Below the pieces are notes generated by a model that did not search any database, had not been told where the DNA came from, and was given only the letters and a program-made list of their open reading frames with translations. Shown piece by piece: positions 58,003 through 63,659 of a stretch of 64,000 nt of DNA. The stretch lies in NCBI RefSeq assembly GCF_021184045.1, contig NZ_CP073710.1, positions 2,180,685 to 2,244,684 on the forward strand. Direction: 5' to 3'. Positions within the stretch are counted from its first letter, which is position 1, and every line of letters begins with the position of its first letter. The position numbers and the translations under genes are program-made. The DNA is from Methanococcoides orientis (GTDB lineage: Archaea; Halobacteriota; Methanosarcinia; Methanosarcinales; Methanosarcinaceae).

Positions 58003-58491
58003 ATGGCAAGTGTTGTAGAAGCCTTGGTTCCTGGAGGTAAAGCAAATCCGGGCCCTCCACTTGGTCCAGCATTGGGACCTCTTGGTGTAAATATCAAAGA
58101 CGTGATCGATAAGATCAATGACAAAACTAAAGATTACAATGGAATGCAGGTTCCTGTTAAGGTAATTGTCGATGACGACAAGAATGTCGAGATTGAAGTG
58201 GGTACTCCACCAACATCCGCATTGATCCTTAAGGAACTGAACATTGAGAAAGGCTCCGGTGAAGCCGGTACTGTCAATGTTGGTGATCTTTCAATTGCAC
58301 AGGCTGCAAAGGTCGCTCGCATGAAAAAAGACGATATCCTTTCCTATTCCCTCAAGGCTGCAGTTAAAGAGGTCATGGGTACATGTGTACCAATGGGCGT
58401 TACTGTAGAAGGTCTTGATCCAAGGGAATGCCAGAAAGCTGTTGATGAGGGCAAGTTTGACGAAGCTCTTGCAGCAGAAGCATGGAATTAA
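58003..58491 (+). CDS. rpl11: 50S ribosomal protein L11
   Basis: Part of the GTPase-associated centre of the large subunit. At 162 residues it is the archaeal length. The start [20 protein letters not shown] carries the flexible proline switch, and the C-terminal rRNA-binding domain follows ([19 protein letters not shown]). SD AAAGGTG. A stable hairpin lies after the gene. Confidence 0.97.
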
Positions 58492-58524
58492 GGATCGATA
58501 TCTGATCTTAGTATCAAATGAATT

Positions 58525-58545
58525 GGTCGGCCGCCCAGGCTGACC
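58525..58545 (+). terminator. GC-rich hairpin after rpl11
   Basis: GGTCGGCC (58525-58532), loop GCCCA, GGCTGACC (58538-58545), 8 bp with one G-U pair. It could be an attenuator or partial terminator, or part of the leader of the next unit. No long T-run follows. Confidence 0.45.
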
Positions 58546-58551
58546 GACAAG

Positions 58552-58725
58552 TTTAAAATAATTGCTTCATTATTGAAGTGCTCGTAATTGAGATGAAAAT
58601 CTCCTTACTTTAACCGTAGTAGGCCGTAGCGGTCGCATCGGTTGGCATGCAATCTCGTGTGCCCTCCGGATACGGGGTATGACCCTGTATCTGAACATTT
58701 GTTCATTAACTACGGGAGGAATAGA
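58552..58725 (+). promoter_or_regulatory. Internal promoter and structured leader of rpl1
   Basis: TTTAAAATA (58552-58560) is a likely TATA box. The leader folds strongly: CCGTAGT (58614-58620) pairs perfectly with ACTACGG (58709-58715), next to the SD GGGAGGA; inside lie ATACGGGG with CCCTGTAT around a 5-base loop (near 58670-58690) and GAACATTTGTTC. Such folding next to the SD suits translational control, for example autoregulation by L1 as known in Methanococcus, although there the site lies inside the coding region. Confidence 0.5.
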
Positions 58726-59367
58726 ATGGTAGAAGAGACTACTTTAAATCTAGTAAAAGAGTTAGTCGAAGGGTCCCCTGAACGTAAGTTCTCTGAAAGT
58801 GTGGATCTGGCAATTAACTTAAAGAACCTCGATATGAGTCAACCTAAGAACCGTGTGGACGAAGAGATAATTCTTCCCAATGGTCTTGGTAAATCCCTTA
58901 AGATCGCTGTTTTCGCAAAGGGTGAAGTTGGACTCAATGCTAAAGATGCTGGTTCAGACTATGTTCTGACCGAAGAGGATATCCAAGAACTTGGCGAGGA
59001 TAAATCCAAGGCAAGAAGTCTTGCAAATGAGTGCGACTTCTTCATTTCAGAAGTGCAGTACATGCCTCTGATCGGTAAGACCCTCGGTGCAATTCTCGGT
59101 CCTCGTGGAAAGATGCCTGTACCTTTGACTCCTGATAAGAACGTCGCAGATCTTATCAACAGTACGAAGAACTCTATTCGTATAAGGTCAAAAGACAGAC
59201 TTACGTTCCACGTAGCAATTGGTCGCAGAGACATGGATGTCGAAAAGCTGGCAGAGAACATCGAGACAGTTCTGAGCAGGGTCGAGAACTCACTCGAAAA
59301 AGGTAAACATAACCTTAAATCGGTCTATGTTACGACTACTATGGGTAAATCTGTGAGGTTGGTATAA
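58726..59367 (+). CDS. rpl1: 50S ribosomal protein L1
   Basis: L1-stalk protein and, in archaea, translational repressor of its own operon. 213 residues from ATG 58726, which follows GGGAGGA; the longer open frame from TTG 58642 runs through the structured leader and is not coding. The L1 signature is in GKTLGAILGPRGKMPVPLTP near 125. It overlaps the rpl10 ATG by one base (TAATG), so the two are coupled. Confidence 0.97.
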   Translation: MVEETTLNLVKELVEGSPERKFSESVDLAINLKNLDMSQPKNRVDEEIILPNGLGKSLKIAVFAKGEVGLNAKDAGSDYVLTEEDIQELGEDKSKARSLANECDFFISEVQYMPLIGKTLGAILGPRGKMPVPLTPDKNVADLINSTKNSIRIRSKDRLTFHVAIGRRDMDVEKLAENIETVLSRVENSLEKGKHNLKSVYVTTTMGKSVRLV

Positions 59368-60389
59368 TGGCAGAACTTCACCACAGTGAACATATCCCTA
59401 AATGGAAGAAAGATGAGGTAGAGGACATCAAGGGACTCGTCACATCATATCCATTATTAGGTGTTGTGGGTATTGGAGGCATTCCTGCAAAACAGCTTCA
59501 GGCAATGAGAAGGAGCCTTAAGGACGTTGCTGTCCTGAAGGTGTCCAGAAACTCTCTCATAAAAAGAGCGCTCGATGAGTCATCCGATGATATCAAGAAA
59601 ATGGATGATTATGTTGAGGTTCAGACTGCACTGATATTCACAGAAGAGAATCCTTTCAAACTCTACAAGTTGCTTGAGAAGAGCAAGAGTCCTTCCCCTA
59701 TCAAAGGCGGAATGGTCACTCCTAATGATATTATTGTGGAAGCAGGTCCAACAAGCTTCCCACCAGGACCTATACTGGGCGATATGCAGGCTGCAGGAAT
59801 TCCTGCTGCAATCGACGGCGGTAAGGTCGTTATCAAGGAGACCAAGGCAGTTGCAAAGGCCGGAGAGGTCGTACCCCAGAAGCTCGCAGCTATGCTTACA
59901 AGGCTGGAGATCTATCCACTTGAAGTGGGTCTCGATCTAAGGGCTGTTATGGAAGAAGGATCAATCTTTACTCCTGACGTACTCGCAATTGATGAGGAAC
60001 AGATCTTCGCAGACTTCGTACAGGCTACTCAGCAGGCATTCAACCTGTCTGTCAACGCAGTGTACCCAACAACTGAAAACATCAGCACATTACTTGCAAA
60101 AGCAGCTTCAGAATCAAAGAACGTTGCTGTCAACGCTGTGGTATTCGAGCCGGATGTCATGGATATCCTGCTTGGTAAGGCACAGGGCGAGATGATGTCT
60201 GTTGCATCCGCTGCATCCGCTAAGGATGAGGGCGCAGTTGACGATGAGCTGAAAGAGGCACTTGGCGCAGCTGCATCAGCAGCACCAGTTGAATCTGCAG
60301 CTGAAGAGGTCGTTGAAGAGAAGGAAGAAGAAAAAGAAGAGGAAGAAGAGGGCGGCATGGCTGCTGGTCTTGGAGCACTCTTTGGATAA
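59367..60389 (+). CDS. rpl10: 50S ribosomal protein L10 (P0)
   Basis: Base of the ribosomal stalk; binds L11/23S rRNA and several L12 dimers. 340 residues: N-domain with HIPKWKKDEVEDIKGLVTSY, the insertion domain of archaeal/eukaryal P0 (about 110-185), C-terminal helices for L12 and the acidic tail ending [12 protein letters not shown], shared with L12. It overlaps rpl1 by one base. Confidence 0.97.
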   Translation: MAELHHSEHIPKWKKDEVEDIKGLVTSYPLLGVVGIGGIPAKQLQAMRRSLKDVAVLKVSRNSLIKRALDESSDDIKKMDDYVEVQTALIFTEENPFKLYKLLEKSKSPSPIKGGMVTPNDIIVEAGPTSFPPGPILGDMQAAGIPAAIDGGKVVIKETKAVAKAGEVVPQKLAAMLTRLEIYPLEVGLDLRAVMEEGSIFTPDVLAIDEEQIFADFVQATQQAFNLSVNAVYPTTENISTLLAKAASESKNVAVNAVVFEPDVMDILLGKAQGEMMSVASAASAKDEGAVDDELKEALGAAASAAPVESAAEEVVEEKEEEKEEEEEGGMAAGLGALFG

Positions 60390-60435: not shown

Positions 60436-60741
60436 ATGGAATACATATACGCAGCACTTTTACTACACAACGCTGAGAAAGACATTACAGAAGAAGCAGT
60501 TACAGCAGTACTCACTGCAGCTGGAGTAGACGTTAACGATGCACGTGCAAAGGCACTTGTCGCAGCACTCGAAGATGTTGACATCGCAGACGCAATGGCA
60601 ACCGCAGCATTCGCTGCACCTGCAGCAGCAGCACCTGCAGCAGCAGAGGCACCTGCAGCAGCTGAAGAAGCTCCTGCAGAAGAAGAGAAAGCTGAAGAAG
60701 AAGAGAGCGGCATGGCTGGTCTCGGAGCACTCTTCGGATAA
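60436..60741 (+). CDS. rpl12: 50S ribosomal protein L12 (P1)
   Basis: Stalk protein that recruits translation factors. 101 residues: an N-terminal dimerization domain ([20 protein letters not shown]), an Ala/Pro/Glu-rich hinge and the factor-binding tail [24 protein letters not shown]. Last gene of the unit; a long hairpin with T-run follows. Confidence 0.97.
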
Positions 60742-62000: not shown

Positions 62001-63659
62001 TCACTCTGTCTGTCTTTTAACTCCGGTTCTCTTCTTAAATCCGGTACGTGCGCCGGATTTTTTGGATCCGCCATATCCTTCTGATCTTCCAGAGCCTTCA
62101 CCACTTCTTGACTTAGATCCATCATATCCTCCGGACCTTTTTTGGCCTCCGCGTCCTTCTGATCTTCCAGAGCCTTCGCCACTTTTCGGCTTAGATCCGC
62201 CATATCCTCCGGACCTTTTTTGGCCTCCGCGTCCTTCTGATCTTCCAGAGCCTTCGCCACTTTTCGGCTTAGATCCGCCATATCCTCCGGACCTTTTTTG
62301 GCCTCCGCGTCCTTCTGATCTTCCAGAGCCTTCGCCACTTTTCGGCTTAGATCCGCCATATCCTCCGGACCTTTTTTGGCCTCCGCGTCCTTCTGATCTT
62401 CCGGAGTCTTCATCACTTTTCGGCTTAGATCCGCCATATCCTCCAGACCTTTTTTGGCCTCCGCGTCCTTCTGATCTGCGACGTCCGCCGGATTTTTTGA
62501 AGCTGTTCCTGTCATGACGTTTATCTTTTTCGTCCTTTATGACTACCCTTTCAACATCAGGTACAGCTTCCTTTGTGATTGTGAACTTGCGGTGATGTCT
62601 CACGAGCTTTTGGAAAGCATCTGCCTCTCTGTCTGTTAAAACGTTGATGACCTTTCCTTCCTTGCCTGCTCTTGCGGTTCTGCCTATCCTGTGTACATAT
62701 TCATTAACATCATCAGGGATGTCATAATTGTAGACATGTGATACATGAGGAATGTCCAGACCACGAGCAGCAACATCTGTACAGACAAGTGCATGTGCTT
62801 CACTTGAATGGAACTTGTGGAGTGTGCTCTTTCTTTTTGCCTGGGTGTGACCACCATGTATAGCGATCGCATCAATGTCATTTTTCCTGAGGTTCTTCTG
62901 GACGAAATCTACATTGCTTCGTGTGTTACAGAAAACCATCACTAATCCTGACCTCTCTTTTTTCAGGAGGTGGACAAGCAGGGAGAATTTAATTGGTTTT
63001 GGAACATCATAATATACCTGTTCAAGCTTTTCAGGGTCTACATGTGCTTTTGCAAAGACTTTCTGAGGCTCGTTCATGTACTTGCGTGAGAGGTACTTTA
63101 TGTCCTTGGAAACAGTTGCTGAGAAAAGCAATGTTTGTCTTTCTTCCGGACACTCTTTAACGATATCTTCAACATCATCGATGAATCCCATGTCAAGCAT
63201 TCTGTCTGCTTCATCAAGGACCAGCATTTCTACGTTGTCAAGGTCTATTGTACCTCTTCCAATATGGTCCAGAAGTCTGCCAGGTGTCGCAACAACAATA
63301 TCTGCTTTTTCAAGTTGCCTCATCTGTGGGCCAATTGCAACTCCACCGTAGATTGATGCAATTTTTAATCTCTTGTGACGGGAGAACTCTTTCAGTGAGT
63401 TATGGACCTGCTCTGCCAGTTCCCTTGTAGGGGTGAGGACCAGGGCCTTTATTCCCCTTCCAGTCTCAATTTTCTGGATAATGCCACATCCGAATGCGAG
63501 TGTTTTGCCGGATCCGGTAGCTGCTCCTCCAATTATATCCTTTCCTTCAAGGATAAGCGGGATTGCCATTGACTGAATTTCCGTAGGGGCTTCAAAATTC
63601 TTTTCTTCGATTGATCTTAGGATCGCTTCTTCGATCCCTAGGTTTTTAAATGATTCCAT
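62001..63659 (-). CDS. deaD: DEAD-box RNA helicase with Gly/Arg-rich repeat tail
   Basis: ATP-dependent RNA helicase of 552 residues. Core motifs: Q motif APTEIQSMAIP near 20, I AATGSGKT, Ia PTRELAEQV, TPGRLLDHI, II VLDEADRMLDMGF, III FSAT and VI HRIGRTARAG near 325. The C-terminal 190 residues consist of 26-residue Gly/Arg/Ser/Lys repeats (GRGGQKRSGGYGGSKPKS is the core), probably RNA-binding. M. burtonii has a cold-induced helicase of this design that helps translation at low temperature; the same role is likely here. Confidence 0.93.
   Translation of the reverse strand: MESFKNLGIEEAILRSIEEKNFEAPTEIQSMAIPLILEGKDIIGGAATGSGKTLAFGCGIIQKIETGRGIKALVLTPTRELAEQVHNSLKEFSRHKRLKIASIYGGVAIGPQMRQLEKADIVVATPGRLLDHIGRGTIDLDNVEMLVLDEADRMLDMGFIDDVEDIVKECPEERQTLLFSATVSKDIKYLSRKYMNEPQKVFAKAHVDPEKLEQVYYDVPKPIKFSLLVHLLKKERSGLVMVFCNTRSNVDFVQKNLRKNDIDAIAIHGGHTQAKRKSTLHKFHSSEAHALVCTDVAARGLDIPHVSHVYNYDIPDDVNEYVHRIGRTARAGKEGKVINVLTDREADAFQKLVRHHRKFTITKEAVPDVERVVIKDEKDKRHDRNSFKKSGGRRRSEGRGGQKRSGGYGGSKPKSDEDSGRSEGRGGQKRSGGYGGSKPKSGEGSGRSEGRGGQKRSGGYGGSKPKSGEGSGRSEGRGGQKRSGGYGGSKPKSGEGSGRSEGRGGQKRSGGYDGSKSRSGEGSGRSEGYGGSKKSGARTGFKKRTGVKRQTE
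62077..62478. repeat. 78-bp tandem repeat inside deaD
   Basis: The block beginning CCTTCTGATC recurs at 62077, 62155, 62233, 62311, 62389 and 62467, exactly 78 bases (26 codons) apart. The middle copies are nearly identical, and the outer ones carry a few substitutions. It encodes the helicase tail. Because the unit is a multiple of three and lacks stops, other frames also stay open through it; these are not separate genes. Confidence 0.95.

Follow-up and report, generated by a model that had tools for sequence, protein, structure and literature searches.

The rpl1 gene of Methanococcoides orientis, which encodes ribosomal protein uL1, lies in a 64,000-nucleotide stretch of contig NZ_CP073710.1 (the window, to whose first letter all positions refer). 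The L11 gene ends at 58491 and is followed by a 234-base gap before the rpl1 start at 58726, and the genes for L10 and L12 lie downstream. The uL1 encoded here is ordinary and intact, since residues 3-210 or 3-211 of its 213 match L1 chains (1dwu, 1cjs), and the nearest named record is the L1 of Methanococcoides vulcani (99% identical). Near the L12 gene, at 62001-63659 on the reverse strand, is a DEAD-box RNA helicase (named by reading the translation), the C-terminus of which contains several near-identical repeats of about 26 residues each; an opposite-strand frame at 62062-62517 is also open. The features of the gap and of the genes behind it are as follows, with the helices numbered from the 5' end.

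58525-58545, forward strand: GC hairpin, a dyad over the BRE (from the sequence; fold z -3.9 for 58525-58548)
58542-58559, forward strand: promoter, BRE-like GACCGACA then TATA-like TTTAAAAT, with the TATA-like box at 58552-58559
58580-58725, forward strand: predicted leader of the rpl1-rpl10-rpl12 mRNA, about 146 nt, its start predicted from the promoter position
58584-58608, forward strand: 5' hairpin P0 (GUAA..GAGAU GAAA AUCUC..UUAC), paired in 11 of 11 loci of the genus (alignment A4)
58614-58619, forward strand: 5' strand of core helix P1, CCGUAG (pattern match; double changes in relatives)
58620-58621, forward strand: two-base 5' loop U-A (N-A in relatives; GA in H76/H77 of 23S rRNA)
58622-58634, forward strand: core inner hairpin P2, GGCCG UAG CGGUC (double changes in relatives)
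58639-58668, forward strand: inserted arm P3 (double changes with group g14)
58669-58691, forward strand: inserted arm P4 (double changes with g14)
58692-58705, forward strand: arm P5, UGAAC AUUU GUUCA (double changes with g14)
58709, forward strand: A directly 5' of the second P1 strand (in all 109 distinct cores)
58710-58715, forward strand: 3' strand of P1, CUACGG, running into the Shine-Dalgarno (SD) sequence
58714-58719, forward strand: SD sequence GGGAGG, its first two G paired in P1
58726-59367, forward strand: rpl1 (ribosomal protein uL1), an open reading frame assigned by homology of its translation
59367-60389, downstream of rpl1: L10, product named by reading the translation
60436-60741, downstream of L10: L12, product named by reading the translation

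The start of the leader was predicted from the promoter. In Methanolobus psychrophilus, 81.6% of primary transcripts have a BRE and TATA box about 19-22 nt from the start, and the mRNAs of ribosomal proteins have a mean 5' UTR of 165 nt (PMC5378194, partial text). The position of the promoter in the window, combined with the Methanolobus spacing, therefore puts the predicted start near 58580. A preliminary description of this DNA had tied its proposal to a start no further downstream than 58620, and the promoter-predicted start lies upstream of that position. Of the 109 distinct leaders, 76 have a BRE/TATA-like element 5' of the core, compared with 0-2 in ten shuffled sets. In 15 of the 33 leaders that have no such element, L11 lies within 64 bases of L1 (L062, parsed as 0, is among them), and L1 is probably read through from L11 at these loci.

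All elements named in the preliminary description (GC hairpin, TATA-like box, CCGTAGT and ACTACGG arms, inner hairpins and SD sequence) are present. Its closed domain also stands, with CCGTAGT at 58614-58620 and ACTACGG at 58709-58715 separated by 88 bases and adjoining the SD sequence. The proposed single compact RNA had to be given up, because the GC hairpin overlaps the BRE, lies 5' of the TATA box and so falls outside the predicted transcript. The right half of its dyad, TTGGTC..GACCGA, is the BRE of the rpl1 promoter. The hairpin was found by eye in all 11 loci of the genus, with small changes that keep the pairing. As it is upstream of both the TATA box and the predicted start, it falls outside the L1 leader RNA, and is probably a DNA element (an operator) or the end of the L11 transcript (a terminator).

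The 201-base stretch 58525-58725 folds with a predicted -80.1 kcal/mol compared to -53.3 +- 4.5 for dinucleotide shuffles (z -6.0), none of 200 shuffles being as good. The closed domain alone (58614-58715) reaches the same z of -6.0 (0 of 300 shuffles as good), the predicted leader -4.9 (1 of 300 as good) and the insert alone (58634-58708) -4.5. Across the SD sequence the unpaired probability is 0.0 at 58714-58715 and 0.16-0.63 at the other four positions. In the 11 loci of alignment A4 one pair of P0 varies on one side and the others are invariant.

To follow the core through relatives, L1 loci were taken from an order-wide search (L1 in 175 of 185 genomes; 30 loci kept), from contigs (73 loci) and from 60 chosen places, the genomes of these sources overlapping. 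No start was obtained for L102, one of the 163 loci, and it was excluded. The core pattern fits 158 of the 162 loci with a usable start, which together hold 109 distinct cores, and the consensus is YYRUAG followed by N and A, then a stem opening with R-Y, an insert of variable length (5-83 nt), A and CUAYGR. Most outer-arm letters and the loop A were fixed by the pattern, so the counts for those are partly built in; the A that precedes P1's 3' strand was not demanded by the search, and all 109 distinct cores have it. The four loci without a fit comprise two at contig ends (L021 and L037), L132, the core of which is farther upstream (13.5 bits), and L100, where no leader core was found. The covariance model R1 (see below) gives L100 only 14.4 bits, at a site inside L11, and this weak site was discounted.

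The covariation analysis proposed in the preliminary description found compensatory changes in both core helices and, together with g14, in the arms of the insert. In an alignment of 33 diverse cores (A2), the paired share of cells is 97.6%, compared with 91.4% for shuffles and 22-57% after sliding the columns. Double-sided changes occur at six of the ten pairs, which is equalled in 2 of 500 shuffles, and the covariation score is reached by none of 500, both comparisons being made with no tree correction for kinship. Further pair types in A2 were not above shuffles, 168 of 500 reaching the observed number. The double changes in P1 fall at pairs 1 and 3 and three outer pairs are invariant; the outer substitutions replace C-G by U-A and G-C by A-U. 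In P2 each of the four counted pairs varies on both sides, the fourth being missing in 8 of the 33 cores. The outer A-U form was found, in the first set of loci, only in 18 distinct cores of one locus group, and the outer U-A form in two families (L144 and L145 of f4; L181 of f11). No variation of P1 was seen within the genus Methanococcoides (11 loci, A4). The core is an asymmetric internal loop between helices kept by compensatory change, as expected of uL1 mRNA sites. Five families, which we guess to be haloarchaea (f13, f18, f22, f23 and f29), have the same core with 1-7 nt in the 3' loop, and the core is also present in g13, at a guess Methanosarcina.

The uL1 protein binds H76-H78 of 23S rRNA, and its mRNA sites resemble that site, in Archaea also (PMC10931766, partial text). 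In the Rfam archaeal LSU alignment the L1 stalk consists of an outer helix, GA, an inner helix starting from G-C, a 3' strand ending in A, and the outer helix again. The stalk of this genome reads GGUAG-GA-GAC...GUC-...ACA-CUACC in that alignment, with the helix layout of the leader. By eye, the 23S of all nine genomes compared retains the GA loop as well as the A that precedes the 3' strand; the first inner pair is C-G instead of G-C in one of the nine (f14). The helix letters vary and do not follow those of the leaders (f8, f9), so the likeness is one of junction and not of a copied stretch. The 23S gene contains the motif GTAGNAR..ACTAC with an inner stem a single time, at the stalk, and 60 shuffles yielded no copy of it; a loose geometry that dispenses with the exact GUAG/CUAC letters is unspecific, with seven places in the 23S gene against a shuffled mean of 3.3 and maximum of 7. 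R1 gave no match to the 23S stalk and ViennaRNA did not return the Rfam fold there, and the likeness was read from the Rfam alignment and from aligned letters. The comparison with the 23S site, also suggested in the preliminary description, gives the core the layout and key bases of the L1 site. Judged from the aligned letters, the core junction repeats H76/H77 of 23S rRNA, the docking place of L1.

R1 was built from A2 and contains no sequence of the window's genus. A direct cmsearch of the 64-kb window returned one match at E up to 10, at 58614-58718 (21.5 bits), and no second match either inside the rpl1 coding region, where a site of Methanococcus type would be expected, or elsewhere in the window. 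Among 60 phylum-wide L1 loci, representing 24 further families, R1 matches 50. The model had been built with 13 of these 60; of the remaining 47 it matched 37, some of them nearly identical to the ones used. The ten loci without a match belong to f10 (6), f12 (2) and f15 (2). A clear leader core is missing despite the presence of L1 at L178-L180, L182, L183, L188, L189, L219-L221 and L100, that is, in three families and Alkanophaga. The match at L225 takes in a long inner hairpin, and that at L208 stops about 70 nt short of the start codon chosen by the script. In L208 (f27), the core is followed by a 19-codon open frame ending in TGATG over the L1 start (by eye), as if this leader controlled a short upstream frame coupled to L1.

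A search with R1 through 184 whole genomes of the order found 150 matches, spread over 147 of them. A comparable L1 position was available for 124 of the 150, and 122 of these lie within 160 nt of the L1 start. The search scores only part of the candidates and a long insert lowers the score; 37 of the 184 genomes gave no match, all 11 of the window's genus among them, and the leader in the window's own genome was missed. Three genomes (G107, G080 and G025) have a second match. In G107 and G080 the second match falls inside or opposite open frames seemingly unrelated to ribosomes.

In Methanococcoides and one further genus, g14, the 3' loop of the core holds an insert of 75 nt with three extra hairpins. 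In the genus alignment (A4, 11 loci) 97.3% of cells pair, with double changes at only two pairs; the genus alone is weak evidence for the insert, because a two-column slide gives three double-change pairs. A model built from Methanococcoides alone (R2) matches four g14 leaders at full length with 56-62 bits, and the arm sequences of these are much diverged. In the joint alignment of the genus and g14 (A6), 11 of 36 pairs are double-changed compared with a shuffled mean of 4.7, and none of 500 shuffles has as many, in an alignment that was fitted to the R2 structure and so leans towards it, and in which some basal arm pairs fail in four sequences. All of these changes are in the upper helix of P3 (five of seven pairs), in P4 (four of ten; two pairs when the genus is taken alone) and in P5 (two of five). 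A GAAC/GUUC-type hairpin occurs at the place of P5 in many other Methanosarcinaceae leaders (by eye). R2 found one match in each of 18 of 40 genomes, 17 directly before L1 and one (G100) with no comparable L1 position; no second copy was found in the 40 genomes among the 97 candidates scored per genome, a search that a weak copy could escape.

Inserts in other leaders differ greatly in size. Among the 75 distinct cores with inserts of at least 16 nt, 47 have five or fewer of 100 shuffles folding as well, and this is so for 19 of the 22 with inserts above 40 nt. The insert of L012 forms two arms and shorter inserts usually one hairpin, and many Methanomicrobiales-type loci and f5 have 5-8 nt in the loop, with no space for a hairpin. 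By eye, L132 (g6) and L123 (g13) have repeats within the core's 3' loop or close to it, the repeated piece in L123 being its P5-like hairpin, which suggests growth of the insert by duplication in these two. Selection maintains the inserted arms of the window's leader as RNA structure. Their place is probably outside the L1 contact, where they would set the stability or kinetics of P1. A composite switch, in which the three-arm domain splits the L1 site and adds a second input (temperature, salt or a ligand, for example) that gates a P1 which L1 can grip, is unlikely; if true, two signals would be read at one start site.

The leader is very probably a site for autoregulation by L1. The preliminary description had suggested that an upstream leader may carry the L1 site, and the core, its place, the compensatory changes and the 23S layout, all computational, speak in favour. 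The leader adjoins the start of the rpl1 cistron on the L1 operon mRNA, placed there by means of the predicted start. Of the 109 distinct leaders, 103 have the SD sequence at a distance of 0-3 nt from P1's 3' strand, and the end of P1 precedes the start codon by 8-13 nt across leaders and the AUG by 10 nt in the window. Surplus L1 that finds no free 23S rRNA would bind the core (P1, the N-A/A asymmetric loop and P2) and clamp P1, whose 3' strand holds the first two G of the SD sequence. A protein clamping P1 would be expected to block the ribosome because these two G lie in P1, so close to the AUG, and initiation on rpl1 would then fail. Translation of the downstream L10 and L12 cistrons would fall with that of rpl1, and free 23S rRNA would release the repression. 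Binding by L1, repression, release by 23S rRNA and the effect on L10 and L12 are proposed here by analogy with the established behaviour of L1 elsewhere (PMC10931766, partial text).

Structure in a 5' UTR may instead serve mRNA stability or cold-dependent control of translation, with no need for L1. Long 5' UTRs are common in the psychrophilic Methanolobus psychrophilus, its ribosomal protein mRNAs included (PMC5378194, partial text), and the three-arm insert, being limited to a few genera and lying outside the L1 core, would suit such a role. However, the core is almost limited to L1 genes, keeps a near-constant distance to the L1 start and is laid out like the 23S site of the same protein, which a generic stabiliser would not need, and we consider this explanation quite unlikely. 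A sensor of another kind, responding either to the operon's own L10-L12 complex or to a small molecule held at the inserted junction, is very improbable. L10 and L12 are encoded downstream of rpl1, and the insert is a multi-arm junction kept in two genera with compensatory changes, as such a sensor might be, but the insert is missing in most relatives that share the core and the arm sequences differ much between genera, unlike a typical ligand pocket. Rfam contains L10 leaders and riboswitches, yet no Rfam family matches: Rfam 15 returned none at the gathering score for the whole window, and a relaxed search of 58480-58900 gave only four weak unrelated matches (E 2.2-7.8). No described L10(L12) leader family matched the window, which leaves room for an archaeal L10 site of another kind.

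It is hardly credible that the hairpins act purely at the DNA level, as terminator of the L11 transcript or operator of the promoter, with no RNA regulator. In keeping with this, the GC hairpin shares bases with the BRE and is retained across the genus, but the explanation applies to 58525-58545 only, whereas the core lies 3' of the promoter and has compensatory changes of RNA type (G-C to A-U and C-G to U-A).

Shimmin and Dennis are said to have described in 1989 a Halobacterium L1-L10-L12 mRNA with a short 23S-like L1 site between the promoter and the SD sequence of rpl1. The leader in the window has in common with this Halobacterium example a 23S-like site before the rpl1 SD sequence, and differs from the loci guessed to be haloarchaeal, with their 1-7 nt in the 3' loop, by its 75 nt with three hairpins. 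In Methanococcus vannielii, according to work by Mayer and by Koehrer in 1998 and by Nevskaya in 2005 (PMC10931766 cites the last two), L1 reportedly represses its own mRNA through a 23S-like site, which is said to lie about 30 nt inside the coding region. The sites of M. vannielii and of the window are both 23S-like, the first reportedly being in the coding region and the second before the SD sequence. The contrast with Methanococcus drawn in the preliminary description holds for this gene, but the upstream site is no exception: it is the common one across the phylum, with Halobacterium as a reported precedent.

Bacterial L1 sites on rplK-rplA mRNAs are irregular stem-loops with an internal bulge and resemble 23S rRNA; they are located before L1 in Actinobacteria and Cyanobacteria, before L11 in Proteobacteria and before both genes in Firmicutes (PMC10931766, partial text). 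The unit in the window differs from these in its order L1-L10-L12, its own predicted promoter and its three-arm insert. A handful of archaeal cis-regulatory RNAs had been confirmed or predicted by 2020, among them ribosomal protein leaders predicted for S15, eL15 and L4, some of which are rRNA-like, and in the part of that paper available an L1 leader is absent from Table 1 of new archaeal leaders (PMC7247131). Our literature search, which covered few subscription papers and some sources in part, found no L1 leader described in Methanosarcinales. Switches of this kind are known. Judged by Rfam 15 and the literature searched, with some papers available in part, what is new is how broadly the core occurs, that three families lack it, and its three-arm form.

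The presence of the core at the L1 start in most sampled families, and its absence in three, offers a clean system for studying how likeness to rRNA evolves. The range from 5 to 83 nt in the same loop likewise suits the study of how far a ribosomal protein site can be rebuilt and still be recognisable. Since the core is present in g13, genetics would be possible there if that group is Methanosarcina, as we guess.
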